Shown: in pieces, positions 12,544 to 22,265 of the stretch
Layout: every line of letters starts with the position of its first letter
Numbering within the stretch: position 1 is the stretch's first letter
DNA from: Flavobacteriales bacterium
GTDB lineage: Bacteria; Bacteroidota; Bacteroidia; Flavobacteriales_G; JALEGO01
DNA length: 35,066 nucleotides
Assembly: GCA_020629755.1 (NCBI GenBank)
Contig: JAHDCS010000026.1
Location: 1-35,066, forward strand
Direction of reading: 5' to 3'
The notes under the pieces: model-generated
Database searches by the model: none
What the model was told of the DNA's origin: nothing
What the model saw: the letters and a program-made list of their open reading frames with translations, nothing else
Translations under genes and position numbers: made by a program

Positions 12544-13203
12544 TTATTCGCGCCAAAGATAGGCAAATAAAAGGTAAGACAATGAAAAGGTAATGATGGC
12601 TAAAAATGTAAGCCCCATGGTGTACTTATATATGATCGTCAAAGAAAATCCCTCCAAAATATAACGCGAAAGCTTCGTAATTAATAATAAATCAGGAAGC
12701 AAAAGGGGTAATGCTAAAATAGAAAGAAGCATAAAATTACCATCTGCCTTTTCCGTTATAAAAGACAAAAGAGAAAACAATGCAGATACAACCACCCCTT
12801 GAATAAGTAGTACCAAAAACATTAGGCTATTGAATTCTAGGTTAAACCCCATAATCCACCAAAATAAAAAAGCCAGCATACCTACCCATAAAGAAAGTAA
12901 AAAATAAGCCAATACTTTGGCTATAAAATAGCTCGAAGAAGAACCCATAAAAAAAATATACTTCATTCTATTTTTATGGTACTCACTGGTATTGTTTTGT
13001 GCGTGACTGATCATGGTGAAAACGTAAATAAACCAATAAAAAGCAGCCCAATGGTAAATAGTTAAACTTTTAGCCGCCATCAAAAAAATAAGGTAAGAGC
13101 TAATTAAAAGAAAGAAAAACACAGAAAGCCAAGAGCTCTTTGATTTAAATATGAGTGCATACTCAATTTTCAAGAAGGATTTTATTTCACGTATATCAAA
13201 CAC
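12544..13203 (-). CDS. ccmB: Haem exporter permease CcmB
   Basis: Membrane subunit of the CcmABC transporter, 219 residues, with about six hydrophobic helices (SSWLSVFFFLLISSYLIFL, WAAFYWFIYVFTMISHA, FIAKVLAYFLLSLWVGMLAF, FNSLMFLVLLIQGVVVSALF, FMLLSILALPLLLPDLLLI, YKYTMGLTFLAIITFSLSY). The motif QNNTSEYHKNRMKYIFFMGS matches the CcmB helix 2-3 loop. The GTG at 13203 gives the standard family length; the long upstream extension of the frame is the antisense of bshB1 and is discarded. The gene is divergent from bshB1-tamB, and the two proposed starts overlap. No ccmA ATPase gene is nearby; it must be elsewhere. Confidence 0.87.
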   Translation of the reverse strand: MFDIREIKSFLKIEYALIFKSKSSWLSVFFFLLISSYLIFLMAAKSLTIYHWAAFYWFIYVFTMISHAQNNTSEYHKNRMKYIFFMGSSSSYFIAKVLAYFLLSLWVGMLAFLFWWIMGFNLEFNSLMFLVLLIQGVVVSALFSLLSFITEKADGNFMLLSILALPLLLPDLLLITKLSRYILEGFSLTIIYKYTMGLTFLAIITFSLSYLLFAYLWRE

Positions 13204-16200
13204 TTTTTTAACACGAAAGATTATATTTGTTAAAAGCAAACACCCTATCAAAGTTAAAAAAAATAAACGCCTAGACATTCTTGCTTTTGGGGCACATCCA
13301 GATGATGTTGAGCTTGGCTGTGCGGGAACCTTGATCGCCCAAGTTAAAAACAACAAAACCGTAGGCATCATTGATTTAACAAAAGGCGAACTTGGCACCA
13401 GAGGCAGTGTACAGACACGTAAAAAAGAAGCAGAAAAAGCCGCTAAAATTATTGGGGCCTCTCTGAGAGAAAATCTTGGTTTTAAAGACGGCTTTATAGA
13501 CTCCTCTGAAAAAAATTTAAAAAAGGTGATTCGAATTATTCGAATGTATCGGCCACACTTAGTCCTTTGCAATGCCCCAAAAGACAGACATCCTGATCAT
13601 AAAATAGCTTCAGAATTAGTCAGAAGAGCGTGTTTTTTGAGTGGATTAAAAAAAATTAAAACCTCTAATCTGCCCGCACATAGGCCGAAAATGGTTCTTC
13701 AATACATTCAAGACTTTTATCTTCAGCCCACTGTAATTCTTGATGTATCTCATAGTTTTTCACAAAAAATGGAGGCCATCAAAGCATTTAAGACACAGTT
13801 TTATGACCCTAAAACATCACATCTAAACCCTACGCCTATTTCTGGAAAGTCATTTTTAGCACATCTTAAAGGGCGTGCTATCAGCTTAGGACGCCTGATC
13901 AACACCCAATACGCAGAAGGATTTATTGCTGAAAAACCAGTAGGCTGCAATGATGTCTTTAACTTAATTTTCATTGTTTTGTTTTGTTTGTTTTTGTACT
14001 TGAGCTTCTTAGTTAGTCTATTTTTAAAGGTTCCGGTTGTGCAATCTTGGGCCCTAAAAAAGGCAAGCACCTTTATTTCTCAAAAAATTGACACTGAAGT
14101 TTCATTAGGCGAAATTCAACTTGATTTGATCCAAACATTACGCCTAAATGATCTTTTAATTAAAGACGCTAAACAAGATACTTTAATCTATATTAAACAT
14201 ATACGTGTCAATGCGCTGAGTGATTTAGAAGCTTTTAAAAATTTAAATTTTTCTCACATAGAAGCACAAAAAGGAGTTGTGAAAATTGTAAAATATCCGT
14301 TTGAAAATGCATTTAATATTGAATCATTTATTCAAAAATTAAGCCAAAAAAACAACCCATCCACTTCACAAACAGAGTTGCTGTTTAAAAGCATTAATGT
14401 ACAGGCGTTTAAAGTCTTAATCGATGATCAAACAGACTCTAATAAGATATACCCAATACACTTTAGTGCTCTTAATATCAACACAAACTTAAAAATTGAT
14501 TCCTCAGCAAACATCCACTTGAATGTCGCACACTTATCTGCCGCTAACAGCTTGTTAAGTGAGATTACTTCTTTTAATGGCCAACTTCTTATCAATTCAA
14601 CACACATAAAGGGAGAGAAACTTCATTTAAAAACTTTGTTCTCAGACATAGAAAGCTCGGGCCTTGAGATTGAATTACCTAAAGATACTTCTGATTTAAA
14701 ACTAGAAACACAAATACAAAATGCCCTTGTTTCTAGCAAAGATCTCAATCACTTTTTAGACTCTATTATTAATATAGATGTTAAACTAAATACATGGCTT
14801 AGTTATGAAAATAGTTCTATGCAACTTAAAAAAACACAGGCCTCACTTTTAGACCATTCCAGGATCAATGGCGATATATACTTAAGTTTCAAAGACAACT
14901 TTTTTGGCTACAGCCCCAATATTGATCTGTCTTCACATGTGCAAGATGTACTCGACATACTCTCTAGAATTGACTCTAATAACGCTCTTGACACGCATTA
15001 TATAAATAAATTAAGCTTTTTAAATTATAAAGGAAATCTCTCTTTCACCAATCACTTTTTTGAGAATAATGGGGTGCTTACTAGTAAGATGGGACGTTTA
15101 GAAAATCAAAATAAAATCACTTTCAATAAAGAATCATTAAGCATTCAAAGCAAACTAAATACCGACTCTTTTTTAATAGGACAATTCACCAATGATAGCC
15201 TTTTAAAACAAATCTCTACCACAGCAAGTCTCACCTATCGCAAACAAGATAAACGCCCTGCACTAATGACTATTCAAGGTGCAATTAATAAGATCAATTA
15301 TAAAAATTATACCTACTCAAATATATGGATGGATGGGCACTTAGAAAATGAATCCTTTTCTGGACTTATCAATATAAAAGATCCGAATTTATCAGCTTCT
15401 TTTAACGGCCAAACAAGTTTAACTGGGTCTAACGGGTTTTCTGACCATCATTTTGATTTAGACATTCAGCATTTTAACCCTATAAAAACCAATTTACTAA
15501 ACAGTAAAAAAGAGATTACGCTAAGTGCAAAAAGCACCATCAATATTCAAGCAAAAGACCTCAATCAATGGAATGGGCAGATTAATCTTTCAAAGCTCTC
15601 TTTTCAAGACAAAGATACACGCATAGACATTAATGATATTGCTATTAACCGAACCCATTTAAACAATAATCATGAACGCATAGAAGTCACCTCAGATCTT
15701 TTAAATGCTTCTTTTCGTGGCCGTTTACAGCAAAAAAATATCCAAAACCATCTCACTTATCTGTATGATTTTATAAAATCTGATACCTTATTACCCAATC
15801 CGAATCCTTCCATCCAAGGACAAGTAAACATCAATAATATAGATTCTGTAATGGATTTTTTTAAATTCTCTATGAGCATCGCACCTTTATCTCGTTTAAG
15901 TTTTAACCTTTCTAATGATCATCCCCCCATAGTACATTCACAATCTAGTTATATCGAATATGATTCTATATTATTTACACATTTAGACCTTAAAACAGAC
16001 ACCTCAAATCTATACTCCCTTAAGCTTAAAACCCAAAAAACAAAATGGAAACACCATGAATTTGAATCTGTAGCTGCCCATTTAAAAAAAGCCTCAAATA
16101 AGACTTCCAATTCATTTAATATAAAAGGAGAATACATCAATTATGACCATGCAGCCTTCTTATTAGAATCTACCATCTCACAAAAAGATTCAGGATTTCA

Positions 16201-18334
16201 TATACACATTCACGATCCATCATATATAAGAATGCGCGATGAAGACTGGACAATAAGCTCAAAAATTTTAGGCTACAAAAACGATATTTATCTTGATTAT
16301 TTCGATGTTTTCTTACCAAAAAAAGGATCTGTACATTTAGCCGGCAAGCATAAATCTAATCAAACCATACTCTCAGGCGCATTCAAAGAAGTTCCGTTGG
16401 GGTTTATAAAAGCCTTTTTCAACTCTTCAGACCTTGAAGTGCAGGGTGAAATTAACGGAGACATGCAATTAGAAACCGACTTAAAAAAGAATCTACACAT
16501 CAATAGTGATCTTCAATTTTCAGACCTAAAAATTGATTCTATCACCACAGGCCATGGCTCTTTGCAAACCAAATGGAATAAAAAAAATGAAAACCTGAGC
16601 CTTAACTTAGATATAAAACACCCTGACATGTCAAAAACAATACATTTGAATGGGCACCTCTATGTAAATGATCCGTTTAACATAAACCTAACCTGCACGG
16701 CCGAGCAATTGCCTTTACAACTATTAGAGCCTTATACCTCAAGTGTTTTTTCATCGCTATCTGGACATGCTGATCTAAATATCAAAGTCAAAGGCTCGCT
16801 CAAGTCGCCTGAAATTAGTGGCTTTGCCGAATTACAAAATACCAAAGCAGAAATTGATTACTTAAAAAGTACCTTCTATTTGCCAAAAGCTAAAATAAAA
16901 ATCAAAAAAGATTATCTCGCCATAAATCATGCCAAGATATTAGATGCAGATAGTAACACTGGGCACTTAACAGCCACGGTTTTACATGAAAACTTTAAAA
17001 AAATGAATTACGATCTTAGCTTTAGCTCTAAAAATATGTTTAAAGCCTTAAATACCACTCAAAAAGACAATGATTTGTTTTATGGAACAGCCTTCATCTC
17101 TTCTCCGACAGTTAATGTGAGTGGATATGAAAAGAATTTATTTATAAGCCTCTCTGGTTCAACGGCTGAAGAGAGTGAAATTAACTTTCCGTTGTCTGGA
17201 TCAGAACATATTGAAACCGCTAAATTCATCAGCTTTATCAGCACAAAAGACAAAACTACTTCTTTAAAAGAGACAAAAGAAAACAACCAAGACCTTGAAG
17301 AACTTCACACTCAAATACACATGTATTTAGATGTTAAAGACAATACTGTAATCAACATTATATTTGATGAAAAACTAGGCGATGTAATTAAAACAAGAGG
17401 AAATGGAGAAATCAAAATAGAATACGATTCAAAAGAAGACCCTAAACTATTTGGCCGCTATGAAATTACAAAAGGCGACTATCTCTTCACATTTCAAAAC
17501 TTAATCAATAAAAAATTTAAACTCAGAAAAGGCAGTTCTATCAACTGGACAGGCAATCCTTACAAAGGGCAACTAGACATGACTGCATCTTACAATCTAA
17601 GAACATCTCTGGCTTCTTTACTGGTCAATGAAACTGAATCTGATTTAGTAAACAAGCGCATCCCTGTAGAATGCCTGATTGATATCAGCGATGATTTATA
17701 TAGCCCAAATATTAAATTCAATATCGACTTACCTACAATCCCTGAAAACCATGACTTAAAGTCTCAATTTCATAGTCTTGTCACTCATAATGAAGATCAA
17801 ATAAGAAATCAGTTTTTCTCACTTTTAATGCTCAATAGATTTATGCCTGATGACAATTCAGCCTACGCCTCTACTAGTAAAAATGATGCTACAAATAACT
17901 TGTCTGAACTGGTCTCTAATCAGCTCAGCAATTGGGCCTCTAAAATCAGTTCAGATGTAGATGTTGGGCTTAATTACAGACCTGGCGATCAATACACACA
18001 AAACGAACTAGAACTTGCTCTTTCAACACGCTTATTGAATGATAGATTAACATTAGAAGGTAATTTTGGAGTTGGAGGGAGTTCAAATATAGGCACTGAA
18101 GGCGACGAACGCTCAGGCTCTGGTCTTATCGGAGATTTTTTTATTGAATATGCCTTAAACAAAGAACGTAATGTGTCTGTAAAAGCCTATCACAAATCGA
18201 ATGATGATCGATTAGAAATCAACAACTCTTCTTATACCCAAGGCGTTGGATTAGTCTTTAAAAAAGAGTTCAATAAAGTAAAAGACTTATTCAGTACTTG
18301 GTTCAATAAATCTGAAAATCCCCCCAAAGAATGA
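13151..18334 (+). CDS. BshB1 bacillithiol deacetylase fused in frame to TamB
   Basis: One open frame of 1727 codons with two complete modules. About 41-272 is BshB1, the zinc deacetylase acting on N-acetylglucosaminyl-malate in bacillithiol synthesis: AHPDD at 48-52 and DRHPDH at 145-150 give the metal and catalytic residues, and it ends with the family's AEGFIAEKPVG. Directly afterwards comes one membrane helix (about 273-294) and a full TamB/DUF490 protein: SQKIDTEVSLGEIQLD and DTLIYIKHIRVN near the start, a very long beta-helical groove, and the C-terminal DUF490 domain (about 1350-1700). The helix would leave BshB1 in the cytoplasm and TamB in the periplasm, so the fusion is topologically sensible. 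No stop or internal ATG lies at the junction. The true start is unclear: ATG 13151 overlaps ccmB, while a promoter-like box lies at 13222 with no ATG after it. It overlaps mpl by four bases (ATGA). Confidence 0.88.
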   Translation: MSAYSIFKKDFISRISNTFLTRKIIFVKSKHPIKVKKNKRLDILAFGAHPDDVELGCAGTLIAQVKNNKTVGIIDLTKGELGTRGSVQTRKKEAEKAAKIIGASLRENLGFKDGFIDSSEKNLKKVIRIIRMYRPHLVLCNAPKDRHPDHKIASELVRRACFLSGLKKIKTSNLPAHRPKMVLQYIQDFYLQPTVILDVSHSFSQKMEAIKAFKTQFYDPKTSHLNPTPISGKSFLAHLKGRAISLGRLINTQYAEGFIAEKPVGCNDVFNLIFIVLFCLFLYLSFLVSLFLKVPVVQSWALKKASTFISQKIDTEVSLGEIQLDLIQTLRLNDLLIKDAKQDTLIYIKHIRVNALSDLEAFKNLNFSHIEAQKGVVKIVKYPFENAFNIESFIQKLSQKNNPSTSQTELLFKSINVQAFKVLIDDQTDSNKIYPIHFSALNINTNLKIDSSANIHLNVAHLSAANSLLSEITSFNGQLLINSTHIKGEKLHLKTLFSDIESSGLEIELPKDTSDLKLETQIQNALVSSKDLNHFLDSIINIDVKLNTWLSYENSSMQLKKTQASLLDHSRINGDIYLSFKDNFFGYSPNIDLSSHVQDVLDILSRIDSNNALDTHYINKLSFLNYKGNLSFTNHFFENNGVLTSKMGRLENQNKITFNKESLSIQSKLNTDSFLIGQFTNDSLLKQISTTASLTYRKQDKRPALMTIQGAINKINYKNYTYSNIWMDGHLENESFSGLINIKDPNLSASFNGQTSLTGSNGFSDHHFDLDIQHFNPIKTNLLNSKKEITLSAKSTINIQAKDLNQWNGQINLSKLSFQDKDTRIDINDIAINRTHLNNNHERIEVTSDLLNASFRGRLQQKNIQNHLTYLYDFIKSDTLLPNPNPSIQGQVNINNIDSVMDFFKFSMSIAPLSRLSFNLSNDHPPIVHSQSSYIEYDSILFTHLDLKTDTSNLYSLKLKTQKTKWKHHEFESVAAHLKKASNKTSNSFNIKGEYINYDHAAFLLESTISQKDSGFHIHIHDPSYIRMRDEDWTISSKILGYKNDIYLDYFDVFLPKKGSVHLAGKHKSNQTILSGAFKEVPLGFIKAFFNSSDLEVQGEINGDMQLETDLKKNLHINSDLQFSDLKIDSITTGHGSLQTKWNKKNENLSLNLDIKHPDMSKTIHLNGHLYVNDPFNINLTCTAEQLPLQLLEPYTSSVFSSLSGHADLNIKVKGSLKSPEISGFAELQNTKAEIDYLKSTFYLPKAKIKIKKDYLAINHAKILDADSNTGHLTATVLHENFKKMNYDLSFSSKNMFKALNTTQKDNDLFYGTAFISSPTVNVSGYEKNLFISLSGSTAEESEINFPLSGSEHIETAKFISFISTKDKTTSLKETKENNQDLEELHTQIHMYLDVKDNTVINIIFDEKLGDVIKTRGNGEIKIEYDSKEDPKLFGRYEITKGDYLFTFQNLINKKFKLRKGSSINWTGNPYKGQLDMTASYNLRTSLASLLVNETESDLVNKRIPVECLIDISDDLYSPNIKFNIDLPTIPENHDLKSQFHSLVTHNEDQIRNQFFSLLMLNRFMPDDNSAYASTSKNDATNNLSELVSNQLSNWASKISSDVDVGLNYRPGDQYTQNELELALSTRLLNDRLTLEGNFGVGGSSNIGTEGDERSGSGLIGDFFIEYALNKERNVSVKAYHKSNDDRLEINNSSYTQGVGLVFKKEFNKVKDLFSTWFNKSENPPKE
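13222..13229 (+). promoter_or_regulatory. -7 box (TATATTTG) inside the annotated 5' end of bshB1-tamB
   Basis: Exact TAnnTTTG match, identical to the box before the Smr gene. A transcript from it would begin near 13235, after the only ATG available for the fusion gene, so either the box is not used or translation starts at a non-standard codon. Confidence 0.35.
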
Positions 18335-19695
18335 ACATCCATTTTATAGCCATTGGCGGAAGCATTATGCACAATCTTGCCTTAGAATTACACGATAAGG
18401 GTTATCGTATTACAGGATCAGACGATTATTTTTATGAACCTTCTAAATCTCGTCTTAAAAGCGCAGGCTTATTGCCTAAAGAGAATGGTTGGTTTACAGA
18501 TAAAATAGAGGATCATTTAGATGCTATTATTTTAGGGATGCATGCAAAAAAAGACAATCCTGAGCTGATAAAAGCGCAAAAAATGGGGCTTAAAATTTAT
18601 TCTTTTCCATCCTACATTTATCAAGAAACACAACACAAAAAACGAATCTCTATTTGCGGCTCTCATGGCAAAACTACTCTTACCAGTATGCTTTTACATA
18701 TCCTTAAACACCACAACATTGGAGCAGACTACCTAGTTGGCGCTCAGATTGACGGATTTAAAAACATGGTGTCTTTAAAAAAAGAACATACTCTAGCTGT
18801 TTTTGAAGGCGATGAATACCTCTCTTCAGCCATCGATGCTCAATCAAAATTTTTGCATTACCAATCTCACATTACTTTACTTACAGGCATTGCCTGGGAC
18901 CACATCAATATTTTTAAAACCTTTGATGATTACTTAAATTGTTTTATTCAGCTGATCAAGCAAAAATCAAACGATGATATTATTGTTTATAACACTGAAG
19001 ATCCAACACTTAAATCCTGTGTAGAAGCGCATGCTGTATGTAGAGTAATTGGCTATAAGAATCCTGAATCGTGTAATCTAAAAGACAATAGTATTGACTA
19101 TCAAAACAACACGTTTACGTTTTCTCTTTTTGGCATGCACAATTTTAACAACATGCAAGGTGCGGTAACTCTTACTAATCTTCTAGGCATCCCTAAAGAG
19201 AAAAGCTATGCGTATTTAAGCTCTTTTAAAGGGCCTAGTAAAAGACAAGAAATTTTACTTGACACTGACGCGATACAAGTATACAAAGATTTCGCACATG
19301 CTCCTTCAAAAGTAAAAGCCACCTCACAAGCCTTTAAAGATAAATTTCAAGACAAAACCCTTATCGGCTGTTTAGAATTGCACACCTTCAGCAGCCTTAA
19401 TAAGGCCTTTTTGCCACACTATAAAGCCTCGTTAAGCGCTTTTGATTATCGTTATGTATTCATTGATCCTAAGATTGTGAAAAACAAAAAATTAGACGCC
19501 ATTAGCCTTTTAGACATACAAGACTATTTTGACGACTCTGAGCTTGTTTTAGTGCATAACAATGATGATTTATCAAAGCACATCATAGACAAAACCAGGA
19601 AGAATTGCGTCATTGTATTTATGTCTTCTGGCAGTTTTTCAAATTTGAATTTTGATGAATTAAATCAAAAAATTATACATAAATTAGACCTCTAA
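18331..19695 (+). CDS. mpl: UDP-N-acetylmuramate : L-Ala-gamma-D-Glu-meso-DAP ligase (murein tripeptide recycling)
   Basis: Cytosolic Mur-ligase family enzyme of 454 residues that joins recycled tripeptide to UDP-MurNAc with ATP. The N-terminal Rossmann part reads MNIHFIAIGGSIMHNLALEL with TGSDDYFYEPS, the Mpl form of the MurC-like start. The ATP loop GSHGKTT is at 110-116, followed by VFEGDEY and TGIAWDHINIF, typical of Mpl rather than MurC. The C-terminal domain includes YKDFAHAPSKVKAT. Its ATG overlaps the stop of the fused bshB1-tamB gene (ATGA), and its stop overlaps the next gene (TAATG), so the three genes are translationally linked. Confidence 0.93.
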   Translation: MNIHFIAIGGSIMHNLALELHDKGYRITGSDDYFYEPSKSRLKSAGLLPKENGWFTDKIEDHLDAIILGMHAKKDNPELIKAQKMGLKIYSFPSYIYQETQHKKRISICGSHGKTTLTSMLLHILKHHNIGADYLVGAQIDGFKNMVSLKKEHTLAVFEGDEYLSSAIDAQSKFLHYQSHITLLTGIAWDHINIFKTFDDYLNCFIQLIKQKSNDDIIVYNTEDPTLKSCVEAHAVCRVIGYKNPESCNLKDNSIDYQNNTFTFSLFGMHNFNNMQGAVTLTNLLGIPKEKSYAYLSSFKGPSKRQEILLDTDAIQVYKDFAHAPSKVKATSQAFKDKFQDKTLIGCLELHTFSSLNKAFLPHYKASLSAFDYRYVFIDPKIVKNKKLDAISLLDIQDYFDDSELVLVHNNDDLSKHIIDKTRKNCVIVFMSSGSFSNLNFDELNQKIIHKLDL

Positions 19696-20609: not shown

Positions 20610-20648
20610 TAGAGCTAAATTATGACGTTTTATCACAAATTAACTCTA
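20610..20648. repeat. 39-base imperfect palindrome, compact copy of the 2264-2426 repeat arm
   Basis: Runs from TAGAGCTAAATTATGACG to the mirror-image AATTAACTCTA. Its minus-strand reading starts TAGAGTTAATTTGTGATAAA, closely matching the left arm at 2264. It fills the 45-base gap between two convergent genes, and its final triplet is the TAG stop of the phosphatase gene on the minus strand. It may act as a bidirectional terminator or be an element insertion. Confidence 0.7.
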
Positions 20649-22265
20649 TATCTGAGTAATCCAAAAGCTAACATCATCCGTTTGACTATTGGCTCCTTTC
20701 CAATTTTCAAACTCTGATTGTATAAACAGCCCTATTTTTTCTGTTGAAAAATCACCTTCAGCACCTAAAGCTTCAAGCAATCTATGCGATTTAAATCGTT
20801 CGTTATTCTTTTCTCCTATTTGGTCTACCAAACCATCTGATTTCATCATTAAGATATAGCCTTGATTTTCAAATACATGAGATTTTAAATTTTCAACTTC
20901 ATAAATGGGCTGACCTAGAACCACTTTATTAGGCTCAAGTCTTGCTACATTTTTAGTGAGCTCTTCTGCATTTACAGGAAATGCAAAGGCGTTTTTTTGG
21001 GGTCTTAAAAGCCATAACGAAATATTAGCTCCAGAAAACTCAAAGGTGTTTTGTACTTGATCATAGAGCACTAAGCCTATTTCTACGCCATCTTTTGTGG
21101 CTTCCTTTGAATCATTATGTAAAAATGCGTACAGTTTATGATGCAATTGCTCCAATATTTGTGCCGTAGACATCTGTTGTTTCTCTAAAATAATTGTATT
21201 TAAAAGCGTATGAACTGTCATGGTCATTAAGGCACCAGAAACACCATGACCAGTACAATCCCCAAGTATCCACAACACCTTTTCATTAAGCTGTTTGCAA
21301 TAGTAAAAATCTCCACTTAGAATATCTTTGGCTTGATAAAATAAAAAATGGGTTTTAAATACATTATCTAATTCATTTTTAGTCGGTAAAATAGCCGTTT
21401 GTATTTTCTTGGCATACTCAATATTATCAATGATGGCTTTATTGTTTTGATCTAATAATGTCTTTTGCGCATCAAGTAATGCATGACTTTTCTCTAATTG
21501 ATTTTTATAAGCCGTCATTCTTAGAAAATGATCTACTTTAGCCTGAATAATTCGTTCATCAATAGGTTTGTACAAATAATCAATAACCCCTAGATCCATG
21601 ATGGCCTCTTTCACGTGTTGGGCATCTTTTTGGTTGGCAGTTAAAAAAATGATCGGAATATCCTTGTAAAACATATTTTGTTTTAGAATTCGGGCAATCT
21701 CATACCCATTCATCCCTGGCATCTGTATGTCTAAAATAATTAAATCAATATGTTGTTGCGCCAATACAGAAAAGCAATCTGAAGCATTTTCACCTGTATG
21801 AATAATATAATTAGCATTATTTTTCAAGTGATGTTTTAGAATCATCAAATTTGATGCGATATCATCAATCACCAATATATGCTTGTGGGTATTGTCTTGA
21901 GAAATTTTATTTGAAAACGTATGATTAGAGAGTTTTTCAGACAGTTTTTGCATTGAAAACGCCTTTGCCTCAAAAAACGAATCCACGCCTGCTTTTACTA
22001 ATTCTTCTATTTGGTCTAATGTAAAATCAGAATCCACACAGATCACTTTGCTCATATCAATCTGATATGACTTTAACGAATCAAGCGTTTGTTTACCAAT
22101 TAAGTAATACACATAATTTAAATCATATGATCCAGAGGAAATTTGTTCCAAAAATGGTTTTGGCTTTACTATCCATTCATAATTCACCACCAATGGCTCT
22201 TGGGTGATTTGCGCATGCAAATGCTGATTTTCAGATAAAAAACACAAAATTTTTTGAACAGCCAC
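20646..22265 (-). CDS. Response regulator with PP2C-type (SpoIIE) serine phosphatase output
   Basis: Signalling protein of 539 residues. About 1-120 resemble a degenerate receiver-like domain lacking the phospho-acceptor site (ends VDSFFEAKAF). About 128-245 are a complete receiver: acidic pair Asp134-Asp135, phospho-acceptor Asp179 (LDIQMPGMNGYE), Thr209 and Lys233. A coiled-coil helix (about 250-295) leads into the SpoIIE/PP2C domain with SGDFYY, LGDCTGHGVSGALM and KSDGLVDQ, whose aspartates bind metal. The output would dephosphorylate an anti-sigma-factor antagonist or similar protein in a partner-switching pathway. No kinase or anti-sigma partner lies nearby. The GTG start at 22265 sits five bases after a TACCTTTT box, so the mRNA may be leaderless. 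Confidence 0.9.
   Translation of the reverse strand: MAVQKILCFLSENQHLHAQITQEPLVVNYEWIVKPKPFLEQISSGSYDLNYVYYLIGKQTLDSLKSYQIDMSKVICVDSDFTLDQIEELVKAGVDSFFEAKAFSMQKLSEKLSNHTFSNKISQDNTHKHILVIDDIASNLMILKHHLKNNANYIIHTGENASDCFSVLAQQHIDLIILDIQMPGMNGYEIARILKQNMFYKDIPIIFLTANQKDAQHVKEAIMDLGVIDYLYKPIDERIIQAKVDHFLRMTAYKNQLEKSHALLDAQKTLLDQNNKAIIDNIEYAKKIQTAILPTKNELDNVFKTHFLFYQAKDILSGDFYYCKQLNEKVLWILGDCTGHGVSGALMTMTVHTLLNTIILEKQQMSTAQILEQLHHKLYAFLHNDSKEATKDGVEIGLVLYDQVQNTFEFSGANISLWLLRPQKNAFAFPVNAEELTKNVARLEPNKVVLGQPIYEVENLKSHVFENQGYILMMKSDGLVDQIGEKNNERFKSHRLLEALGAEGDFSTEKIGLFIQSEFENWKGANSQTDDVSFWITQI

Follow-up and report, generated by a model that had tools for sequence, protein, structure and literature searches.

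An in-frame fusion of bshB1 to tamB in a single Flavobacteriales genome, derived from genes that are separate neighbours in its family

The closest described counterparts of the locus studied here are the bacillithiol deacetylase BshB1 (TIGR04001; PDB 6p2t, 2ixd and 1uan) and the TamB proteins of the Bacteroidota. BshB-type enzymes, 2IXD and 1UAN among them, are hexamers. Bacteroidota TamB is the inner-membrane-anchored partner of TamL, and consists of an N-terminal anchor, a long periplasmic part and a C-terminal TamB domain. Both partners are essential in Flavobacterium johnsoniae and Capnocytophaga canimorsus, and their genes do not share one operon in the Bacteroidota (PMC12045153), which fits with a lone tamB gene being free to sit elsewhere.

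We analysed a stretch of 35,066 nt from a Flavobacteriales bacterium (contig JAHDCS010000026.1; hereafter, the window). ORF listing and domain searches identified one forward-strand frame of 1727 codons (13151-18331, with a stop codon ending at 18334) that runs without interruption through BshB1 and then TamB. The features of the locus, with positions in the window, are listed below.

12544 to 13203, reverse strand: divergent ccmB-like gene, whose start is probably the GTG at 13203, judged by homology to genome G003; the name is taken from synteny and resemblance, with no family match above threshold.
13151 to 13264, forward strand: doubtful N-terminal extension from ATG 13151, which lies inside the divergent ccmB-like gene; no counterpart in the family.
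13222 to 13229, forward strand: promoter-like box TATATTTG, which fits the Bacteroidota -7 box; genome G001 has the same box 23 nt ahead of its bshB1 ATG.
13247 to 13249, forward strand: ATC (followed by AAA), a near-cognate codon lying in frame after the promoter-like box and ahead of the BshB1 domain; a possible non-AUG start.
13265 to 13969, forward strand: BshB1 (bacillithiol deacetylase) domain, complete to its last conserved residue and without a stop, by TIGR04001 match, motifs and a C-terminus of EGF plus 15 residues.
13967 to 13972, forward strand: junction, where ATT encodes the final BshB1 residue and the next codon is TTC, a stop in relatives.
13970 to 14029, forward strand: TamB membrane anchor helix FIVLFCLFLYLSFLVSLFLK (predicted helix; alignment with genome G002), without the basic flank seen in relatives.
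14030 to 18334, forward strand: remainder of TamB to its stop codon, with the periplasmic part and the C-terminal TamB/DUF490 domain, homologous to the separate TamB proteins of G001 and G002.
18331 to 19695, forward strand: Mur-ligase-family gene (murC/mpl-like, below the equivalog cut-offs).

The BshB1 half resembles known BshB1 proteins in its full-length domain and intact motifs, with at most 60 % identity to its relatives. The TIGR04001 equivalog model matches residues 41-264 with 279.9 bits (cut-off 182.5), and PF02585 (PIG-L) matches residues 44-161. The metal-binding and catalytic motifs HPDD and DRHPDH are intact in the window and conserved across a 17-row alignment (A2). A further contig scan detected 11 BshB1 loci at 40-52 % identity, none of them a close relative. 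The host genome is a draft of 2.36 Mb in 92 contigs, 98 % complete, in which a search with the whole fused protein, or with its BshB1 part, found a single match; neither BshB1 nor TamB has a further copy outside the fused ORF. BshA (393.5 bits) and BshC (378.8 bits) are both present above their cut-offs, and together with the single copy of BshB1 this argues that the BshB1 half is probably still needed. The half is predicted to deacetylate GlcNAc-malate in bacillithiol synthesis. The bshA gene itself (L088; G000:C29:5-784) is truncated by a contig edge and covers model positions 1-262 of 375.

The TamB half is also complete. PF04357 (TamB) matches residues 1264-1707 with 167.6 bits (cut-off 22.4), so that the claim of the initial annotation that an entire BshB1 passes into an entire TamB in one open frame is confirmed. 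The anchor is a 20-residue hydrophobic helix that aligns with the anchor of G002 and is predicted to insert into the membrane. Homology to the TamB proteins of G001 and G002 is full-length, and a long beta-taco groove would lie between the anchor and the C-terminal domain. In an AlphaFold model of residues 29-450, the BshB1 domain is confidently predicted (pLDDT mostly >85) and its C-terminus continues without a linker into a 26-residue helix (model residues 238-263) of moderate confidence (pLDDT ~60-66); the first ~160 residues after the anchor are modelled at low confidence. Three Omp85 proteins, possible partners of TamB, are encoded in the genome, none of them on the contig of the window. 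Elsewhere in the window (20646-22265, reverse strand), a response regulator is joined to a SiaA-like phosphatase domain, with all family matches below cut-off.

To place the fusion in its family, we compared the window with the genus mate G001 and two further members, G002 and G003. Each of the three genomes carries bshB1 next to tamB as separate genes, G003 having one short ORF between them. Divergent ccmB- and ccmC-like genes lie upstream of bshB1 in each (the ccmB-like gene adjoins bshB1 in G001 and G002 and is near it in G003), and in G001 and G002 tamB is followed by the Mur-ligase-family gene, the G003 contig ending within tamB. The BshB1 half of the window occupies the same operon position as the BshB1 of its family relatives. 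The boundary between the genes differs among them. In G001, bshB1 ends with TGA and tamB starts with GTG; in G002 the two genes are in one frame, separated by a single TAA, with no ATG, GTG or TTG before the TamB helix; and in G003 bshB1 ends with TAA and tamB lies in a different frame, again with no such codon before the helix. Outside the family, bshB1 and tamB were not neighbours among the matches listed; most tamB genes sampled there are divergent to tsaD, in contrast to the tamB part of the window, which sits after bshB1.

Separate neighbours in the family and a fusion in one genome indicate that adjacency is the family trait and that the fusion is derived. Among 60 genomes, both domains occurred in one frame in the window only, and no second fusion was found among the matches listed in a class sample of 395 genomes. 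Two long frames were rejected as fusions: the 1689-codon TamB frame of G377 reflects chance openness antisense to tsaD, and the 406-codon BshB1 frame of G042 is an upstream extension without TamB. Where the initial annotation had weighed two separate genes in relatives, together with peptide evidence for two N-termini, against a fusion, the separate genes are found in all three, and the fusion stands as the derived state. The pairing of the two proteins is consequently gene-order history, and the proposal that it tethers thiol synthesis to lipid transport is not supported by it, as ordinary neighbours in G001, G002 and G003 are no evidence of coupling between pathways.

The junction itself is sharp. 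The last BshB1 residue is the Ile encoded at 13967-13969, and the TamB helix begins at 13970, refining the earlier observation that the anchor follows directly on the BshB1 C-terminus. The scan detected the C-terminus in 24 relatives, and in 24/24 a stop follows 15 residues after EGF (for L049 an earlier EGF was picked up, with an identical end). The C-terminus of the window, EGFIAEKPVGCNDVFNLI, is equal in length to that of the relatives, and is followed by TTC instead of a stop. In this the half differs from known BshB1 proteins: the free C-terminus 15 residues past EGF, which is regular in relatives although non-catalytic, is absent, the stop has been lost, and the chain runs on into a membrane helix. 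When G002 is read through its stop, the alignment shows the window to be short by 11 columns, QNTRIRRIIKI (with Q for the TAA), which indicates that the lost piece comprises the bshB1 stop together with TamB's basic flank. No basic residue is present between the end of BshB1 and the helix; compared with Bacteroidota TamB, the window has the BshB1 domain in place of the gene's own start and basic cytosolic flank.

These observations are best explained by a recent, short in-frame deletion between adjacent genes, confined to this genome, after which both halves would retain their usual work; we consider this likely, with a neutral fusion as its most probable form. The origin of the fusion is clear and probably recent. 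A deletion of ~30 bp within one operon would have removed the bshB1 stop together with the tamB start and its basic N-terminal flank, and the product would be one protein of ~1690-1727 residues. The BshB1 half would remain in the cytosol, deacetylating GlcNAc-malate for bacillithiol synthesis; its C-terminus would pass straight into the TamB anchor, and the TamB half would cross the periplasm as usual. The anchor is normally oriented by a positively charged cytosolic flank, whose place the BshB1 domain would take. As BshB-type enzymes are hexameric, tethering could also cluster TamB. Functional coupling of the halves is unnecessary to this explanation. The in-frame fusion with a cytosol-in anchor that the initial annotation proposed is supported, its orientation being a prediction.

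A sequencing or assembly artefact, in which the real genome has a bshB1 stop and a tamB start of its own, is unlikely. The fusion rests on one example in a draft of 92 contigs, a T-rich stretch lies directly after the junction, and the gene has an unusual start region as well. However, the frame matches BshB1 relatives to the last residue and TamB immediately thereafter, so a one-base error would have to sit in the anchor itself. Within the anchor, the other two frames stay open for ~11-16 codons before a stop and contain no ATG from which TamB could start. The loss of ~11 whole codons relative to G002 is atypical of a base error, and the flanking gene order is that of the relatives.

It is improbable to a slightly greater degree that the frame is fused as read while translation from an internal start (TTG or ATT near 13967-14000) supplies some or most of the TamB, giving two products. 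The initial annotation was right that no ATG lies between the halves, and in-frame TTG codons are present inside the helix at 13979, 13988, 13994 and 14000; tamB genes of relatives, moreover, often lack ATG, GTG and TTG before the helix. Against this, a TamB begun at the junction would be without the usual orienting flank, as no basic residue lies between the end of BshB1 and the helix, and a start at the TTG codons would shorten the helix. Nearly all of the relatives' TamB proteins inspected keep the basic flank before the helix, and BshB1 would still be unable to end alone. Selection for a fusion linking bacillithiol synthesis with the envelope, for example by gathering BshB1 at TamB sites, is very improbable: the catalytic and anchor parts are both intact, but the fusion is known from one genome, adjacency in the family suffices to explain the choice of partners, we found no link between bacillithiol synthesis and lipid transport in the literature searched, and, with no second fusion among the matches listed, nothing shows that selection keeps it.

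The start of the fused gene is the second peculiarity of the locus. In 28/28 other BshB1 genes an ATG, GTG or TTG is found 8-13 codons before HPDD, and in relatives it stands directly before the LDIL motif. The window differs from known BshB1 genes in having none of these codons at the usual position; the nearest is ATG 13151, 48 codons before HPDD. The frame is indeed open from residue 1, where the initial annotation placed the start, but the conserved start of BshB1 corresponds to approximately residue 39, and the preceding stretch overlaps ccmB and lacks a family counterpart. As ATG 13151 lies inside the probable coding part of the ccmB-like gene and upstream of the conserved promoter-like box, it is a doubtful start, and the first 33-38 residues are unproven. 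The box fits the Bacteroidota -7 promoter consensus TAnnTTTG (PMC6847099, PMC9723704); if it is a promoter, the start must be non-AUG, with ATC 13247 as the candidate. A normal start could also be masked by a minor sequence error in the A-rich stretch ahead of the domain, and the missing canonical start could hint at sequence error or decay.

The initial annotation had taken the missing internal ATG as support for the fusion. To judge this argument, we inspected the 5' regions of 78 separate Bacteroidia tamB genes, from the last in-frame stop to the membrane helix. No ATG, GTG or TTG precedes the helix in 40/78 (including L098-L101, L108, L112, L115-L117, L126, L128, L140, L146 and L166-L173); ATG is found in 20, and GTG or TTG only in 18. 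The argument is therefore weak, as the absence of a canonical start is common in tamB and says little about the fusion. The tsaD genes on the opposite strand of the same stretches served as a control, and none of 62 lacked a canonical start codon; the 28 other BshB1 genes, all with such a codon, provided a second control.

In 38 of the 40 start-less tamB genes, ATT (24) or ATC (14) precedes a Lys or Arg codon upstream of the helix; in L100 and L101, ATC is the sole near-cognate codon noticed there. The codon nearest the helix was scored, which differs from the IKK codon in L106, L113, L121, L144 and L164. ATA never occurs at this position, yet it makes up 26 % of the Ile codons further downstream in the same genes. 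A T is found at -1 of the ATT or ATC codon in 33/38, and the conserved bases from -7 to 0, CAAANNTA, are the reverse complement of TAnnTTTG. Of the 26 start-less loci with a tsaD ATG, 21 have a TAnnTTTG box within the 120 nt preceding that ATG. The CAAANNT-ATY motif, considered as a start-codon context for tamB, was accordingly reread as this reverse complement and is maybe only the divergent tsaD promoter, which may lie inside the first codons of tamB. The absence of canonical tamB starts stands independently of the motif. Reasoning from the lack of alternatives, we regard the ATT or ATC at the I-K-K motif as the likely tamB start. Tentatively, and with more doubt than confidence, we suggest that in much of the Bacteroidia tamB is started at AUU or AUC, that the fused gene likewise starts at AUC 13247, and that the fusion keeps the rate of TamB synthesis low and controlled.

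We found no report of a BshB1-TamB fusion and none of non-AUG tamB starts in the literature searched. Both families are known, and their fused combination is a curiosity of gene order rather than a new system. If translated as read, it would be a naturally occurring example of a cytosolic metabolic enzyme attached to the TamB lipid bridge at its cytosolic end, and the TamB anchor would accept a folded domain of ~235 residues where its flank normally is, a tolerance useful for tagging TamB. The comparison of tamB start codons may matter more than the fusion itself: with approximately half of the sampled separate tamB genes lacking a canonical start, annotated TamB N-termini in the phylum are probably often wrong.
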